NCBI RefSeq assembly: GCF_016654015.1
Contig: NZ_JAEPWM010000005.1
Location: 310,001 to 374,000 of the forward strand
DNA from: Ramlibacter ginsenosidimutans
Lineage (GTDB): Bacteria; Pseudomonadota; Gammaproteobacteria; Burkholderiales; Burkholderiaceae_C
Length of the DNA stretch: 64,000 nt
Reading direction: 5' to 3'
This document shows, in pieces, positions 56,120-64,000 of the stretch (positions are counted from its first letter, which is position 1; each line of letters starts with the position of its first letter). The notes under the pieces were generated by a model, which did not search any database, was not told the origin of the DNA, and was given only the letters and a program-made list of their open reading frames with translations. The position numbers and the translations under genes were made by a program.

Positions 56120-57064
56120 TCAGGGCAGGTTGATCACGGTGTTGACCATCGTCACCGAGGCGTTCAGCGACAGCACGCGGCCGTCGATGGTGACCAGCGC
56201 GACGTTGCCGGGCGTCGAAATCGCGGCGCCGGACTGCGTGATGACGGTTCCCTTGAAGGTGCCGCCGCCGCCCGCGTTGATGGTGGCCGCGCTGCCGACT
56301 TGCCAATAGACGTTCTTGGCCTGGGCGCCATTGGTGAGGATCACGTTGGCGGGGAAGGCCGCGCCGGGACCGCCGACGGTGAGCGAGGTCGCCATCTGGA
56401 ACACCCACACGGCATTGGCATCGCCCTGCGCGTCGAGCGTCAGGTCACCGCCCTGGATGCGGAAGGTGCCGGCCGCCGCGGTATAGACGCCGGGGGCGAG
56501 CGTGAGGCTGGCCAGGTTGCCGGCGCCCGGATCCGGACCGAGCGGCTTGGCGACCAGGGCGTTGTAGGCGATGAGCGCATCCGCGCGGGCGTTAGCGGCC
56601 GTCGTGGCGGTCAGTGACGTGCCGCCGATGCAGCCTGCAGCACTGGTCCCCACGGGCGGCGGCGGCGCGGTGTACACGCGGTTCGTGCCCGGCAAGGTGC
56701 CGATGTTGAGCCCGGTTTCGGTGTAGTCGCACTTGTTCACGCCGGCGACACCGTCATGGAAACCCGTGACCGTGGTGGCGACGGCGGTGGTGCCGAGGTC
56801 CGCGTTCACGACGGTGTTGATGCCCTGGTTGGTCACGCCGGCGGAGCCGCCGAAGACGCCGAAGGTGGTGGCCGCGCCGAGCGGGACGGCCACGCCACCG
56901 ACCAGGGGCACCTTGGGCGCGACCACGGGAGCCCCCGCGGCGGGTGAGCCGGCCTGCGCGCCGTCGAAGCCGAGAACGCGGTCCTGCCCGCCGCCGCAAG
57001 CGGCGAGCGTGGCAAGGAGCGCGACTGCGGCCCAGGGGCGCAGCGAAAGGGGGAGGAGCGTCAT
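56120..57064 (-). CDS. DUF3494 (ice-binding-like) lipoprotein
   Basis: A 314-aa exported protein. The lipobox is LLATLAACGGG (Cys about residue 23). The body is a DUF3494 domain, the beta-helical fold of bacterial ice-binding proteins, with FGVFGGSAGVTNQGINTVVN, LTLAPGVYTAAAGTFRIQGG, ANAVWVFQMATSLTVG and KNVYWQVGSAATINAGGGGT. Most DUF3494 proteins in non-polar bacteria have no proven ice activity and may be adhesins. ATG at 57064 has an AAAGG site; a TTG six codons upstream is less likely. It is 26 bp upstream of the OmpA gene on the same strand. Confidence 0.88.
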   Translation of the reverse strand: MTLLPLSLRPWAAVALLATLAACGGGQDRVLGFDGAQAGSPAAGAPVVAPKVPLVGGVAVPLGAATTFGVFGGSAGVTNQGINTVVNADLGTTAVATTVTGFHDGVAGVNKCDYTETGLNIGTLPGTNRVYTAPPPPVGTSAAGCIGGTSLTATTAANARADALIAYNALVAKPLGPDPGAGNLASLTLAPGVYTAAAGTFRIQGGDLTLDAQGDANAVWVFQMATSLTVGGPGAAFPANVILTNGAQAKNVYWQVGSAATINAGGGGTFKGTVITQSGAAISTPGNVALVTIDGRVLSLNASVTMVNTVINLP

Positions 57065-57096
57065 GGAAGGAAGCCTTTTCAAGATGGAGGTCGGGA

Positions 57097-60066: not shown

Positions 60067-60888
60067 ATGACATCGACCCATCACACTGCGGACTTCACCG
60101 ACACGGGCCTGCGCCGCCGCAGGGCTTCGGCGCACGGCGGCTACGGCTGGGTGCGCGACCTGCCGGACGAGCGCGACTTCTTCTACTCGGCACCCCTCAC
60201 CCGCACCGGCCCGTTGCCGGAGAAGGTCGACCTGCGGCCCGGCTGCCCGGCGGTGTACGACCAGGGGCAGCTCGGGAGCTGCACGGCCAACGGCGTCGGG
60301 GCGGCGGTCGAATTCGACCAGATGAAGCAGGGCGTAAAGACCTTCGTGCCCTCGCGCCTGTTCATCTACTACAACGAGCGCGCGATCGAAGGCCACGTCA
60401 ACCAGGACTCCGGCGCGCAGATCCGCGACGGCGTGAAGGTCGTGTCCACGCTGGGCGCGCCGCCGGAGACGGCGTGGCCCTATGCGATCGACAAGTTCAC
60501 CCAGAAGCCGCCGCAGGCCGCGTACGCGGAGGCGAAGAAGGACCTGGTCACCCGGTACGAACGCGTCCCGCAAAGCCTCACGCAGTTCCAGGGCTGCCTG
60601 GCCGAGGGCTTCCCGTTCGTGTTCGGCTTCACCGTCTACGAGAGATTCGAGAGCGACCAGGTCGCCAAGACGGGCCTCGTCCCCATGCCCAAGCCGGGCG
60701 AGGCGATCCTCGGCGGCCACTGCGTGGTCGCGGTGGGCTACGACAACGCGAAGCGGCACATGATCATCCGCAACTCCTGGGGCGTGAAGTGGGGCCTGGC
60801 CGGCTACTGCCTGATGCCCTACGAGTACGTGATCAACCCGCAGCTCTCCTCCGACTTCTGGACACTCCGCTCGGTGAAGGAGAAGTAG
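60067..60888 (+). CDS. Papain-family (C1) cysteine peptidase
   Basis: A 273-aa peptidase without a signal peptide or pro-region. Catalytic Cys72 lies in YDQGQLGSCTANGVGAAVEF, the His in GGHCVVAVGYDNAK and the Asn in MIIRNSWGVKWGLAGYC. This is the compact bacterial C1A type and likely acts in the cytoplasm or is released by an unknown route. ATG at 60067 has an AGGAG site. It begins the peptide-processing-like group at the right end of the window. Confidence 0.88.
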   Translation: MTSTHHTADFTDTGLRRRRASAHGGYGWVRDLPDERDFFYSAPLTRTGPLPEKVDLRPGCPAVYDQGQLGSCTANGVGAAVEFDQMKQGVKTFVPSRLFIYYNERAIEGHVNQDSGAQIRDGVKVVSTLGAPPETAWPYAIDKFTQKPPQAAYAEAKKDLVTRYERVPQSLTQFQGCLAEGFPFVFGFTVYERFESDQVAKTGLVPMPKPGEAILGGHCVVAVGYDNAKRHMIIRNSWGVKWGLAGYCLMPYEYVINPQLSSDFWTLRSVKEK

Positions 60889-61021
60889 CGGCAGCCTGCG
60901 CGGGTGCCGCCGTGCGTCACCCCGCGCTGGTCGCGGGCCCGGGCCTTGCCCGAATCCCCAGTGCGCTTGCCGCAGGGGGGCGCGCAGAATTCCCCTGCGT
61001 CACGGCGCGAGGAGGACCACC

Positions 61022-61426
61022 ATGCTGCAGCGGCGGCGTTTCCTGTCCGGTGTCCCGGCGGCGGCAGTCGCTGCGGCGCTGGCGGCGCGCGTAAGCGGCG
61101 CGTGGGCGCAGCGGCCGGCGCAGCCGATCGCGCGGCCGCCCGGCCAACGCCTGCCGGGCGCGCTCGTGGCGGGCCGCTTCGATGCGAGCGGCGGCAGCGG
61201 CAGCGGCGCGTCGCCGGGCGTCTATGGGGTCGTGGCCGTCGACACGCGCGCCGACCTGCTGCAGCTGCGCGATGCCGACGGACGCACCGCCTCCGTGCAC
61301 GTGAACGACCACACCTTCGACCTGGCCACGCTGAAGCCGGGCGACGAGGTGGAGGTGGACTTCGCCGTCCCGGAGCCGGGCAGCACCGTGCTGCAGGCCG
61401 GCGGGATCTGGAAAGTGCAGCGCTGA
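61022..61426 (+). CDS. Exported hypothetical protein with twin-arginine-like signal
   Basis: A 134-aa protein. MLQRRRFLSGVPAAAVAAAL reads as a Tat-type signal, with cleavage near SGAWA. The mature part has a Gly/Ser-rich spacer and then a small beta-rich region (GVYGVVAVDTRADLLQLRDA, LATLKPGDEVEVDFAVPEPG) that could be an OB- or SH3-like barrel. ATG at 61022 has a GAGGAGG site. No family recognised. Between a cysteine peptidase and a serine hydrolase. Confidence 0.65.
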   Translation: MLQRRRFLSGVPAAAVAAALAARVSGAWAQRPAQPIARPPGQRLPGALVAGRFDASGGSGSGASPGVYGVVAVDTRADLLQLRDADGRTASVHVNDHTFDLATLKPGDEVEVDFAVPEPGSTVLQAGGIWKVQR

Positions 61427-61621
61427 CGCCGCAGAGCTGAGACAGCGACCCCGTCGTGCCGGCGGGCGGCAGCCCGGCGCGCCGCCGTGCGCGCGAGGCT
61501 GCGTTGCCGCTCACCTTTGGTGTTCGTCCGACGCGGGGCGCCCGCGTGCCGCCCCACCATCTGCCGAAGAAAGACGGGAAGCTTCTTCCCCAACCTCAGC
61601 GGCAGGAGACCCTACACAGCC

Positions 61622-62458
61622 ATGGCAGAGCCCACGCTTCGCGACACCGTCCTGCGGATCGGCGAAGAGGCCAACGCGGCCGCCGTCGCGGTCGCGGCCT
61701 ACGACTTCGAGCACCACACGGCGTGGTCGCTCAATGCCGCGCGCTGGTTCCATGCCGCGAGCACGATCAAGGTGCCGGTGCTGCTGGCCGTGTACGACGC
61801 CATCGAGCAGCACCGCTTCGAGCCGCATTCGCGCGTGCACGTGCGCAACCGCTTCCTCGGCCTGGTCGACGGCCGGCCGTTCCGCGTCGGGACCGGCAGC
61901 GAAGCGAACGCCGAGGTGCACGCGGCGGTCGGGCGCATGCTGACCGTGCACGAGCTGGCCGAGCACATGATCGTGACCAGCAGCAACCTGGCCACCAACC
62001 TGTTGCTCGATCTCGTCGGCATCGAGGCCGCGCGCGCGTCGCTGGCGCGCCTGCACCTGGGCGGCATAGACCTGCAGCGCGGCGTCGAGGACGAGGTCGC
62101 GTGGGAAGCGGGCATCAACAACCGGGTGACGGCCGCGGGGCTCTGCGACGCGTTGAGGCTGATCGAGGAGGGCAAGGCGATCTCGGCCGAGGCTTCCCAG
62201 GCGATGCTGGACATCCTGCACCAGCAGCGCTTTCGCAGCGGCATCCCGGCCGGGCTGCCGGAGGATGCGCGCGTCGCCCACAAGACCGGCGAGATCTCCA
62301 CGGTCGCGCATGACGCGGGCATCGTCTATCTCAACGGGCGCGATGCGTACGTCGTCGTCATCCTCACCGAGTGGGCGCCGGAGGTGAACGGGCGGCAGGA
62401 GACGATCGCGCGCATCTCGCGCGCGGTGTACGAGTACATGACGGGGCAGCAGCAATGA
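61622..62458 (+). CDS. Class A beta-lactamase-like serine hydrolase
   Basis: A 278-aa penicillin-recognising serine hydrolase. Catalytic tetrad Ser47-x-x-Lys50 (STIK), SSN in place of SDN (VTSSNLATNLLLD) and KTG (HKTGEISTVAHDAG). No signal peptide is visible, unusual for a beta-lactamase, so a cytosolic peptidase or amidase role is more likely. Its stop overlaps the next start (ATGA). Start ATG at 61622. Confidence 0.88.
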   Translation: MAEPTLRDTVLRIGEEANAAAVAVAAYDFEHHTAWSLNAARWFHAASTIKVPVLLAVYDAIEQHRFEPHSRVHVRNRFLGLVDGRPFRVGTGSEANAEVHAAVGRMLTVHELAEHMIVTSSNLATNLLLDLVGIEAARASLARLHLGGIDLQRGVEDEVAWEAGINNRVTAAGLCDALRLIEEGKAISAEASQAMLDILHQQRFRSGIPAGLPEDARVAHKTGEISTVAHDAGIVYLNGRDAYVVVILTEWAPEVNGRQETIARISRAVYEYMTGQQQ

Positions 62459-63066
62459 GTGCGCTGCCGCTGCCCGTCGTCTTCGCCGACGACCTGCCCG
62501 ACGACGTGCGGCAGGTGCTGCGGCCCGGCGAACCGCTGCGTGACCGCGAGGGCATCGCGCATGTCCTGCCCGCGTCCTTCCTGCGCGTGGACTCGTGGAA
62601 GCAGGCGATGGAAACGCCGCTCACTGCGCACTTCTGCCTGTCGGAGCTGATGGCCGTGGACGTGCGCGAGGCCGCGCGCATGCGCTCGTTCCCGCGCTAC
62701 GTGCCCTGCGCGATCGTGCTGCTCGCCGCCGCACTCGAGCTGTTCCGCATCGAGGTGGGCACCTATGTGCACGTGGCCGCCAACGGCGGCTACCGCTCGC
62801 CGGGACACGCGCTGAGCCGATACGCCTCGCGCCACTGCTGGGGCACGGCCGCCAACATCTACCGCATCGGCGACAGCTATCTCGACACGCGGGAAGAGAT
62901 CGAGAAGTACGCCGCCATCGCGCGCCGCGTGATCCCCGGTGCGTGGGTGCGCCCCTTCGGCCCGGCAGACGGTGAGACCGACGATCACCTGCACATCGAC
63001 ATCGGCTACACGGTGTTCGATCCGGTGGACGCGGGCGACCGTCGCCCGGGCAGGGAAGGCAGCTGA
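62455..63066 (+). CDS. Peptidase M15-like protein
   Basis: A 203-aa protein. The M15 pattern S-x-H-x2-G-x-A-x-D appears as SRHCWGTAAN, with Asn134 in place of the Asp zinc ligand, and the second metal motif is ETDDHLHIDIGY (His178, His180). GGYRSPGHALSRYAS is also typical. M15 enzymes cleave peptidoglycan stem peptides; the Asn change may weaken zinc binding. No signal peptide. Its start overlaps the serine-hydrolase stop, and its stop overlaps the next start (TGATG), so the three genes are translationally coupled. Confidence 0.75.
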   Translation: MSALPLPVVFADDLPDDVRQVLRPGEPLRDREGIAHVLPASFLRVDSWKQAMETPLTAHFCLSELMAVDVREAARMRSFPRYVPCAIVLLAAALELFRIEVGTYVHVAANGGYRSPGHALSRYASRHCWGTAANIYRIGDSYLDTREEIEKYAAIARRVIPGAWVRPFGPADGETDDHLHIDIGYTVFDPVDAGDRRPGREGS

Positions 63067-64000
63067 TGGCGAGCACGAAGAAGCGGGAGCATGCATCCGC
63101 GACCGAGCGTTTGCGGCTGGCCGCCATGGGGATGGAGGCGGAGTGCTCGCTGGTGCTGGACGACGAGCCGACGCGGCCGGAGGCCTTGTTCGGCAGCCCG
63201 CGCGATTTCATCCGCGGCGAGCTGATGCATCGGCAGGGCACCTCGTACCAGCTGCCCACCGGGGGCGCCGTCTACTTCGACACGGGCGTGATCGAGGTCG
63301 CGACGCCGGTGGTGGAGATCGAGCGCGGTTGCGCGGCGTGCGCGGGGCGCCTGCTGTGGGAATCGCTGCAGTTCCTGCGCGGTGAGCTCGACGCGTGGGA
63401 CGCGGCGCACGCGCGCAAGACGCGGCTGGTCGGCTTCAGTGCGCACTACAACGTGTCCTTCGCGCTGCCGTCCGGCCAGCCGGCGAAGGGCCGCACGATC
63501 GAACAGCTGGCGCTGCTGCTCACGTACATCCTGCCCGCGCCGGTGATGCTGCTCGCGGCCAACCGGCGCTCCACCGGCGTGGGCGTGCGGCCGCGCGAGG
63601 ACCGCATCGAGATCACGTGCGATTTCACGCCGAGTCCGTCACTGATGATCGCCACGGCGGCCCTGATCGCCGGTGTGGTGCGCGAGGTGATGACCTGGCC
63701 GACGTATGAGCTGGACGAGCTGGCGAAGCACGGTATCCCCGTGATCAGCGGCTTCCGGCCGATGCCGCACACCTCACGCAAGGGCTGGCTGGCGCGCTTC
63801 ACCTGCTATCCGAAGAACCCGTTCACCTGCGACGTCGACACGGAGCCGTGGCCCACGCAGCGGCATGGCGCGCTCAGCCTGCGCGCGATCGCTGAGCAGA
63901 CGGTGCGCCGGTTCTGGAGGCCGATCCGCCGCATGTGCGATCCCTTCACCTTCCGGCTGATCGCTGCCGTGCTGCGTGGGCGCAGTCCCTCGCTGCTGGA
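63066..64000 (+). CDS. Glutamine-synthetase-fold ligase-like protein (partial, runs off the window)
   Basis: At least 311 aa with no stop before the window ends. Near its N-terminus it has GMEAECSLVL (residues 22-31), LPTGGAVYFDTGVIEVATP (63-81) and GFSAHYNVSFALP (123-135). The E-x-E, E-x-T-P and G-x-H-x-N pattern fits the GS-fold carboxylate-amine ligases (glutamate-cysteine ligase and 'amidoligase' relatives), which make peptide or isopeptide bonds with ATP. The assignment rests on motifs only. It is translationally coupled to the M15-like gene and is a candidate core enzyme of this cluster. Confidence 0.7.
   Translation, partial: MASTKKREHASATERLRLAAMGMEAECSLVLDDEPTRPEALFGSPRDFIRGELMHRQGTSYQLPTGGAVYFDTGVIEVATPVVEIERGCAACAGRLLWESLQFLRGELDAWDAAHARKTRLVGFSAHYNVSFALPSGQPAKGRTIEQLALLLTYILPAPVMLLAANRRSTGVGVRPREDRIEITCDFTPSPSLMIATAALIAGVVREVMTWPTYELDELAKHGIPVISGFRPMPHTSRKGWLARFTCYPKNPFTCDVDTEPWPTQRHGALSLRAIAEQTVRRFWRPIRRMCDPFTFRLIAAVLRGRSPSLL

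Follow-up and report, generated by a model that had tools for sequence, protein, structure and literature searches.

In the 64,000-nucleotide stretch of Ramlibacter ginsenosidimutans DNA analysed here (contig NZ_JAEPWM010000005.1, positions 310,001 to 374,000, hereafter the window), the right end carries three overlapping genes whose grouping is conserved across three phyla of soil bacteria. They encode a serine hydrolase (SER), an M15-like protein and a ligase-like enzyme (LIG) whose predicted structure has the glutamine synthetase (GS) fold and most resembles PafA and Dop. The active-site residues of all three proteins are kept, with an Asp-to-Asn exchange in the M15-like protein as the single exception. 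This three-enzyme unit is nameless in the family libraries searched, because neither LIG nor the M15-like protein has a confident match to a Pfam or NCBIfam model, and no paper describing the block was found in the open literature searched. Since both the neighbours of the block and its genome-wide partner genes are peptidoglycan-related, the most likely explanation is that the three proteins form one cytoplasmic module handling peptidoglycan stem peptides that return to synthesis, a reading to which we give about even odds.

Conservation and distribution of the block

It had originally been predicted that five same-strand genes at the right end of the window, starting with a C1 peptidase gene and a gene for a small exported-looking protein, belong to one cluster. 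All five are present, and the two overlaps among the last three (ATGA and TGATG) can be read in the sequence, which supports the translational coupling that had been proposed for them. Conservation of the neighbourhood was borne out for SER, the M15-like protein and LIG, while the first two genes fell away. A scan of a genome collection with full-length LIG, made with one protein and six short patterns and yielding a lower bound, recovered at least nine loci, namely seven in Comamonadaceae (Ramlibacter, Caenimonas and relatives), one in Gemmatimonadaceae and one in Acidobacteriota. In all nine, genes for SER and the M15-like protein lie upstream of LIG on the same strand, and in none of them does the C1 peptidase or the exported protein of the window stand beside the block; the conserved grouping is therefore that of the last three genes only. 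At one Ramlibacter locus (L008, 8091-9503, minus strand; L and G numbers are our own for loci and genomes) a C1 (papain-type) peptidase gene is found about 0.6 kb past LIG, facing the block, and its product, 29% identical to that of the window and encoded on the opposite strand, was judged a coincidence rather than a counterpart.

Searches with a hidden Markov model (HMM) detected LIG in 4 of 247 Acidobacteriota genomes and in 19 of 200, then 46 of 395, Gemmatimonadota genomes, the wider draw including the first 19. None of 99 further genomes from the family to which the window belongs had LIG, the block is absent from G097, which is of the same genus as the window, and wider draws from the class and phylum returned the window's own gene and short weak matches, nothing more. 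Matches set aside comprise one of 57 residues with an internal stop (G112) and those of 66-80 residues (E 9e-5 to 9e-4) in five Pseudomonadota genomes.

The order SER, M15-like protein, LIG on one strand is kept at 56 of the 60 LIG loci. Two of the four exceptions, L113 and L134, are truncated where their contigs stop, and the other two (L075, 6714-7883, and L078, 3500-5263) are second, lone LIG-like copies in two Acidobacteriota genomes, without SER or the M15-like gene; one gene away from the lone copy in L075 lies a gene which, by its motif, looks like one for a membrane dipeptidase. At L015, L109 and L126 the end of the contig truncates SER. In Ramlibacter montanisoli (L012, 8556-11202) both SER and LIG are frame-broken, and L133 (6845-8013) has a split LIG gene, reflecting either decay or assembly error.

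In a tree of LIG, whose deep branches are weakly supported and from which L134 was left out, the eight Comamonadaceae copies form one clade beside the Gemmatimonadota copies L058 and L119, and this joint group (support 100/99) sits inside the Gemmatimonadota set. Such nesting suggests transfer into the Ramlibacter lineage as the simplest reading. Neither a plasmid nor a phage origin was upheld: no match to the proteins P0006 and P0004 was found in plasmids and none to P0006 in phages, and viral contigs held no LIG and one 46-residue match to the M15 motif.

LIG and its likeness to PafA and Dop

That the last product would be of the GS-fold carboxylate-amine ligase kind is in agreement with a structure model made for the LIG copy of L007, which is 80% identical to that of the window (mean predicted local distance difference test score, pLDDT, 73; predicted template modelling score 0.68). 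The best Foldseek matches of this model are PafA (4bjr, E 9.2e-11, template modelling score 0.56-0.58 by query length) and Dop (7oyh, E 1.4e-9), and PafA or Dop account for 11 of the 15 matches with an E-value of 0.001 or better; weaker matches include the YbdK-type structures 1tt4 (E 6.2e-5) and 1r8g (E 3.1e-4) and glutamine synthetase (E 5.8e-4). YbdK and the GCS2 glutamate-cysteine ligases have the superfamily fold and the ExE motif in common with LIG, although the fold match to them is several orders of magnitude weaker than that to PafA and Dop. The predicted GS fold, together with the ExE metal site, would place LIG within the GS-fold carboxylate-amine ligase superfamily.

The putative active site of LIG comprises E24-x-E26 (63135-63143) and Y70-x-D72-x4-E77 (63273-63296), and the residues E24, E26, Y70, D72, E77, H127 and H235 are invariant in all 59 copies in which these positions are represented. 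The Mg ligands of Dop are given in PMC8599861 as Glu8, Glu10, Tyr92, Glu99, His155 and His241. By motif and spacing rather than by residue-level structural superposition, these may be paired with LIG E24, E26, Y70, E77, H127 and H235, while D72 would correspond to the Asp that is catalytic in Dop. The Tyr-to-Glu spacing of seven is common to both enzymes, and the Y-x-D-x4-E pattern fits.

On the other hand, LIG differs from PafA and Dop in its low identity (~11%), in the absence of a Pup_ligase HMM match and of Pup, and in its gene partners. No confident Pfam or NCBIfam match was obtained for the window part of LIG or for 33 homologues, and a PDB sequence search with LIG gave no match. A search of 28 block-bearing genomes, with their LIG genes among the sequences covered, detected the family PF03136 (Pup_ligase) in none at E 0.001, and the family is missing from the Pfam matches of all 33 LIG proteins even when E values up to 10 are admitted. 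Judged from the predicted structure, LIG is an enzyme that appears to work like the Pup ligase family and is not filed as a member because the Pup_ligase HMM does not detect it.

In the Acidobacteriota copies of LIG (L015, 1070-2713; L074, L076 and L077) a long low-complexity insert separates the GS-like domain from the small C-terminal domain, which makes it probable that the C-terminal domain is a module of its own.

SER and the M15-like protein

The motifs of SER are those of a serine hydrolase of the class A type: the nucleophile motif S47-x-x-K50 (61760-61771), S120-S121-N122 and K221-T222-G223, which are conserved in 52/52, 53/53 and 56/56 copies, respectively, that have letters at these positions. 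Glu156 is kept in 54 of 55, and its spacing is that of the deacylation residue Glu166 of class A enzymes. Profile searches matched solved class A-like enzymes, with 4ewf as the best (E 2.4e-26). SER has the PF13354 domain, SxxK and KTG in common with class A beta-lactamase-like hydrolases (4ewf, TLL2115), but carries SSN in place of the usual SDN and shows no signal peptide; it also scores far below every NCBIfam beta-lactamase name cut-off, the best being NF033103 with 110.9 bits against a cut-off of 200.

The corresponding site of the M15-like protein consists of His127 (62833-62835), Asn134 (62854-62856, codon aac), Asp177 and His180 (62992-62994), so that, of the M15 zinc-ligand set His, Asp, His, the window copy keeps both His and has Asn for Asp. 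This substitution, noticed from the start, is real and is a family trait rather than an error, because Asn occupies position 134 in 48 of 56 homologues. It does not by itself establish the non-catalytic role that had been suggested as one possibility, in that His127, Asp177 and His180 do not vary among homologues and Asp is kept in 8 of 56 relatives, comprising all four Acidobacteriota and four Gemmatimonadota copies. The family thus offers a natural Asp-to-Asn series at an M15-type zinc site.

The fold and family evidence for this protein is weak but consistent. While the window copy has no family match, PF08291 (Peptidase_M15_3) was matched by 8 of 31 homologues, below certainty (best E 0.0024); the best PDB profile match, a weak one (E 0.97), is the zinc carboxypeptidase 1lbu, and the fold matches of a structure model, also weak (best E 0.03), are to Hedgehog, LysB4 and LdcB, with residues 111-128 of the active-site loop predicted at pLDDT <50. 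The motif layout NGGYRS...H..G.AA(N/D)...DxxH is common to the M15-like protein and to M15 carboxypeptidases and Hedgehog-fold proteins (1lbu, LdcB, VanY, LysB4), from which it differs by the prevailing Asn at the zinc position and, for the window copy, by the want of a significant family match. SER and the M15-like protein, as had been stated, and likewise LIG have no evident export signal, and a crude hydropathy scan of their copies showed no hydrophobic N-terminal stretch.

Peptidoglycan-related neighbours and partner genes

The connection to wall peptides, suggested at the outset, gains support from the genes that accompany the block. An mpl gene (TIGR01081) lies near it, within ~3.2 kb, in 14 of 46 Gemmatimonadota loci, that is, in 7 of the first 19 and in 7 of the 27 taken later as a test; three of the first seven neighbours were scored with the curated model, all three above its cut-off. 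The gene is convergent with LIG in 10 loci and divergent from SER in four, and these layouts fall into four groups on the LIG tree. An estimate by hand, which assumes one mpl per ~4 Mb genome and stretches of ~12 kb, leads one to expect far fewer than one chance occurrence among 46 loci.

Genome-wide, Mpl-like genes (>300 bits) were found in 15 of 17 block-bearing and in none of 20 block-free Gemmatimonadota (Fisher p 1.5e-8, uncorrected for relatedness), a sample drawn from the 19 block-bearing and 181 block-free genomes of the first 200-genome search. The line between Mpl and MurC at ~300 bits is our own and was chosen after the scores had been seen; 11 of the 15 genes lie above the curated cut-off of 388.7 and four at 309-374, and the best block-free score is 223.5.

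Other contexts point in the same direction. In 6 of 46 Gemmatimonadota loci, all of one clade, genes for a peptide-type ATP-binding cassette (ABC) binding protein and permease, scoring below the curated name cut-offs, are located directly upstream of SER on the same strand; an ABC peptide transporter of Agrobacterium has been reported as a muropeptide importer (PMC9790009). In two of the four Acidobacteriota loci (L074, named by similarity, and L076, named by curated models) the run aspartokinase-dapB-dapA-dapD lies upstream of the block on the same strand, and in three (L015, L074 and L076) an SLT transglycosylase gene faces LIG with an RlpA-like gene beyond it. L077 has neither the dap run nor the SLT and RlpA-like genes, and the upstream side of L015 is cut by a contig end.

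A proposed role in wall-peptide salvage

Taken together, these contexts are the ground for the salvage reading put forward above, in which SER and the M15-like protein would trim or cut peptides containing D-amino acids. LIG would spend ATP to activate the carboxylate of a (gamma-)glutamyl group for coupling to an amine, a chemistry proposed by analogy with that of PafA and of gamma-glutamyl ligases. More specifically, LIG might rejoin L-Ala-gamma-D-Glu to meso-diaminopimelate, which as a carboxylated lysine would make a PafA-like acceptor, and Mpl would then attach the rebuilt tripeptide to UDP-N-acetylmuramic acid. Substrate, direction of the reaction and order of steps are all inferred; the proposal that LIG rebuilds the tripeptide for Mpl is a guess that we regard as doubtful, and the reading that LIG is a Pup-independent PafA/Dop-type enzyme which, in wall peptides, joins gamma-glutamyl units to diaminopimelate (or splits them from it) is rather unlikely.

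Among the closest known systems is the murein tripeptide recycling based on Mpl and LdcA. Most of the block-bearing genomes examined have mpl, either next to the block or at another place; neither SER, the M15-like protein nor LIG is known to be a component of this pathway. The idea that the block replaces LdcA was rejected because LdcA-type S66 genes are kept in all 17 block-bearing Gemmatimonadota examined.

If LIG is a relative of PafA and Dop with wall peptides as its substrates, one could test how pupylation arose outside of organisms that possess Pup, and pupylation, with its gamma-glutamyl-lysine bond, would have a metabolic counterpart, and possibly an ancestor, in peptidoglycan salvage. 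The block would then represent a previously unnamed wall-peptide pathway and a candidate route of wall recycling for Gemmatimonadota and Acidobacteriota, phyla for which we know of no study on this subject and for which none was found in the open literature searched.

Several observations weigh against the salvage reading. The vicinity of the block is free of mpl at 32 of 46 Gemmatimonadota loci and at all four Acidobacteriota and all eight Comamonadaceae loci, the window's own included within the 6.5 kb covered, and the block-bearing genomes G862 and G895 have no Mpl-like gene at all. The proximity of mpl to the block may go back to one ancestral linkage. On a MurC tree of 35 Gemmatimonadota genomes (G813 and G898, without a full MurC, were left out, and the long branches of G914 and G725 probably stem from rows in a wrong frame) there are about six gains or losses of the block, and the support for co-distribution is weak once relatedness is corrected for: four supported independent pairs are left, of which an average of 3.7 show mpl changing with the block and none the opposite (p 0.125). 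Furthermore, the S66 genes found throughout the block-bearing sample also occur in 12 of the 20 block-free genomes, and in the window's family mpl is present with the block (G000) and without it (G097) alike, and hence is uninformative there.

Alternative explanations

It is unlikely, though deserving of most weight among the alternatives, that the product or substrate of the block is a small peptide unrelated to the wall, such as a gamma-glutamyl metabolite or a modified amino-acid store, which it makes or recycles, and that the peptidoglycan genes nearby reflect inherited linkage. Such contexts are known to contain GS-fold ligases next to peptidases (PMC2588565), and this explanation would account for the many Gemmatimonadota loci without a nearby mpl as well as for the Comamonadaceae copies, including that of the window, which have no wall-related neighbour. 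It is less easily reconciled with independent wall-related contexts in two phyla, with the co-distribution of Mpl, and with hydrolase folds of the kind found in DD-peptidases and muramoyl carboxypeptidases.

Quite improbable as well is a Dop-like LIG, acting as an ATP/ADP-dependent amidase on the gamma-glutamyl-diaminopimelate bond or on the D-Ala-diaminopimelate isopeptide cross-link, so that the block would be purely degradative and consist of three breakers of peptide bonds. The nearly equal fold matches to PafA and Dop and the hydrolase folds of the partner proteins are consistent with this, as is the report that few changes separate PafA from Dop activity (PMC7947786). However, E26 and Y70 of LIG are 44 residues apart compared with 82 between Glu10 and Tyr92 of Dop, which leaves no room for an insert of the size of the ~40-residue Dop-loop and makes LIG PafA-like in this respect. 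The force of this argument is lessened by the report that the Dop-loop is not essential for catalysis (PMC7947786).

We hold it very unlikely that the block protects against, or makes use of, external compounds resembling wall peptides, imported by the transporter, opened by SER and the M15-like protein and modified by LIG. The class A motifs of SER, including the Glu at Glu166 spacing, the transporter genes upstream of some Gemmatimonadota blocks and the patchy, transferred distribution would suit it, but beta-lactamases of Gram-negative bacteria act outside the cytoplasm and no export signal is seen on any of the three proteins, and a housekeeping function agrees better with the linkage to Mpl and to genes of diaminopimelate synthesis.

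Finally, Pup-like protein tagging, close to the peptide-tag role of the original prediction, draws on the PafA/Dop-like fold of LIG and is extremely unlikely, given that the PF03136 search described above as negative in 28 block-bearing genomes was positive for the Corynebacterium glutamicum control, and that no coding-strand open reading frame ending in G-G/A-Q/E was found within 700 bases upstream and 900 bases downstream of the block at 60 loci, a scan of the flanks and not of the gaps between the three genes. Apart from pieces of neighbours already named, these flanks contain no conserved small gene. For the bacteria that it covers, the 2008 analysis of pupylation reports Pup next to PafA genes (PMC2588565).

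Layout of the locus and other features of the window

The coordinates of the features are listed in Table 1. LIG has a full length of 401 aa, of which 311 aa are encoded inside the window, and its coding sequence extends 271 bases past the window, to contig position 374271.

Table 1. Genes and gene overlaps at the right end of the window (window coordinates).
Feature	Position	Strand	Family match or basis
C1 peptidase gene	60067-60888	+	PF00112, E 2.7e-12
Gene for small exported-looking protein	61022-61426	+	no family above cut-off
SER, serine hydrolase, class A beta-lactamase / DD-peptidase fold, 278 aa	61622-62458	+	PF13354, E 1e-48
M15-like (Hedgehog / DD-peptidase fold) protein, 203 aa	62455-63066	+	
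LIG, GS-fold carboxylate-amine ligase-like, PafA/Dop-like	63066-64000 (window part)	+	
ATGA overlap, SER stop / M15-like start	62455-62458	+	read in sequence
TGATG overlap, M15-like stop / LIG start	63064-63068	+	read in sequence

The contig stops 272 bases after LIG, and a minus-strand open frame has its 3' end at this contig end (L004, 6447-6544; contig 374446-374543, just past the window). The frame reads like the C-terminus of an IS110-type transposase, and an insertion element may have caused the assembly break after LIG. Elsewhere in the window, the minus strand at 56120-57082 encodes a secreted protein which, judged by eye, has an ice-binding-like (DUF3494) look.

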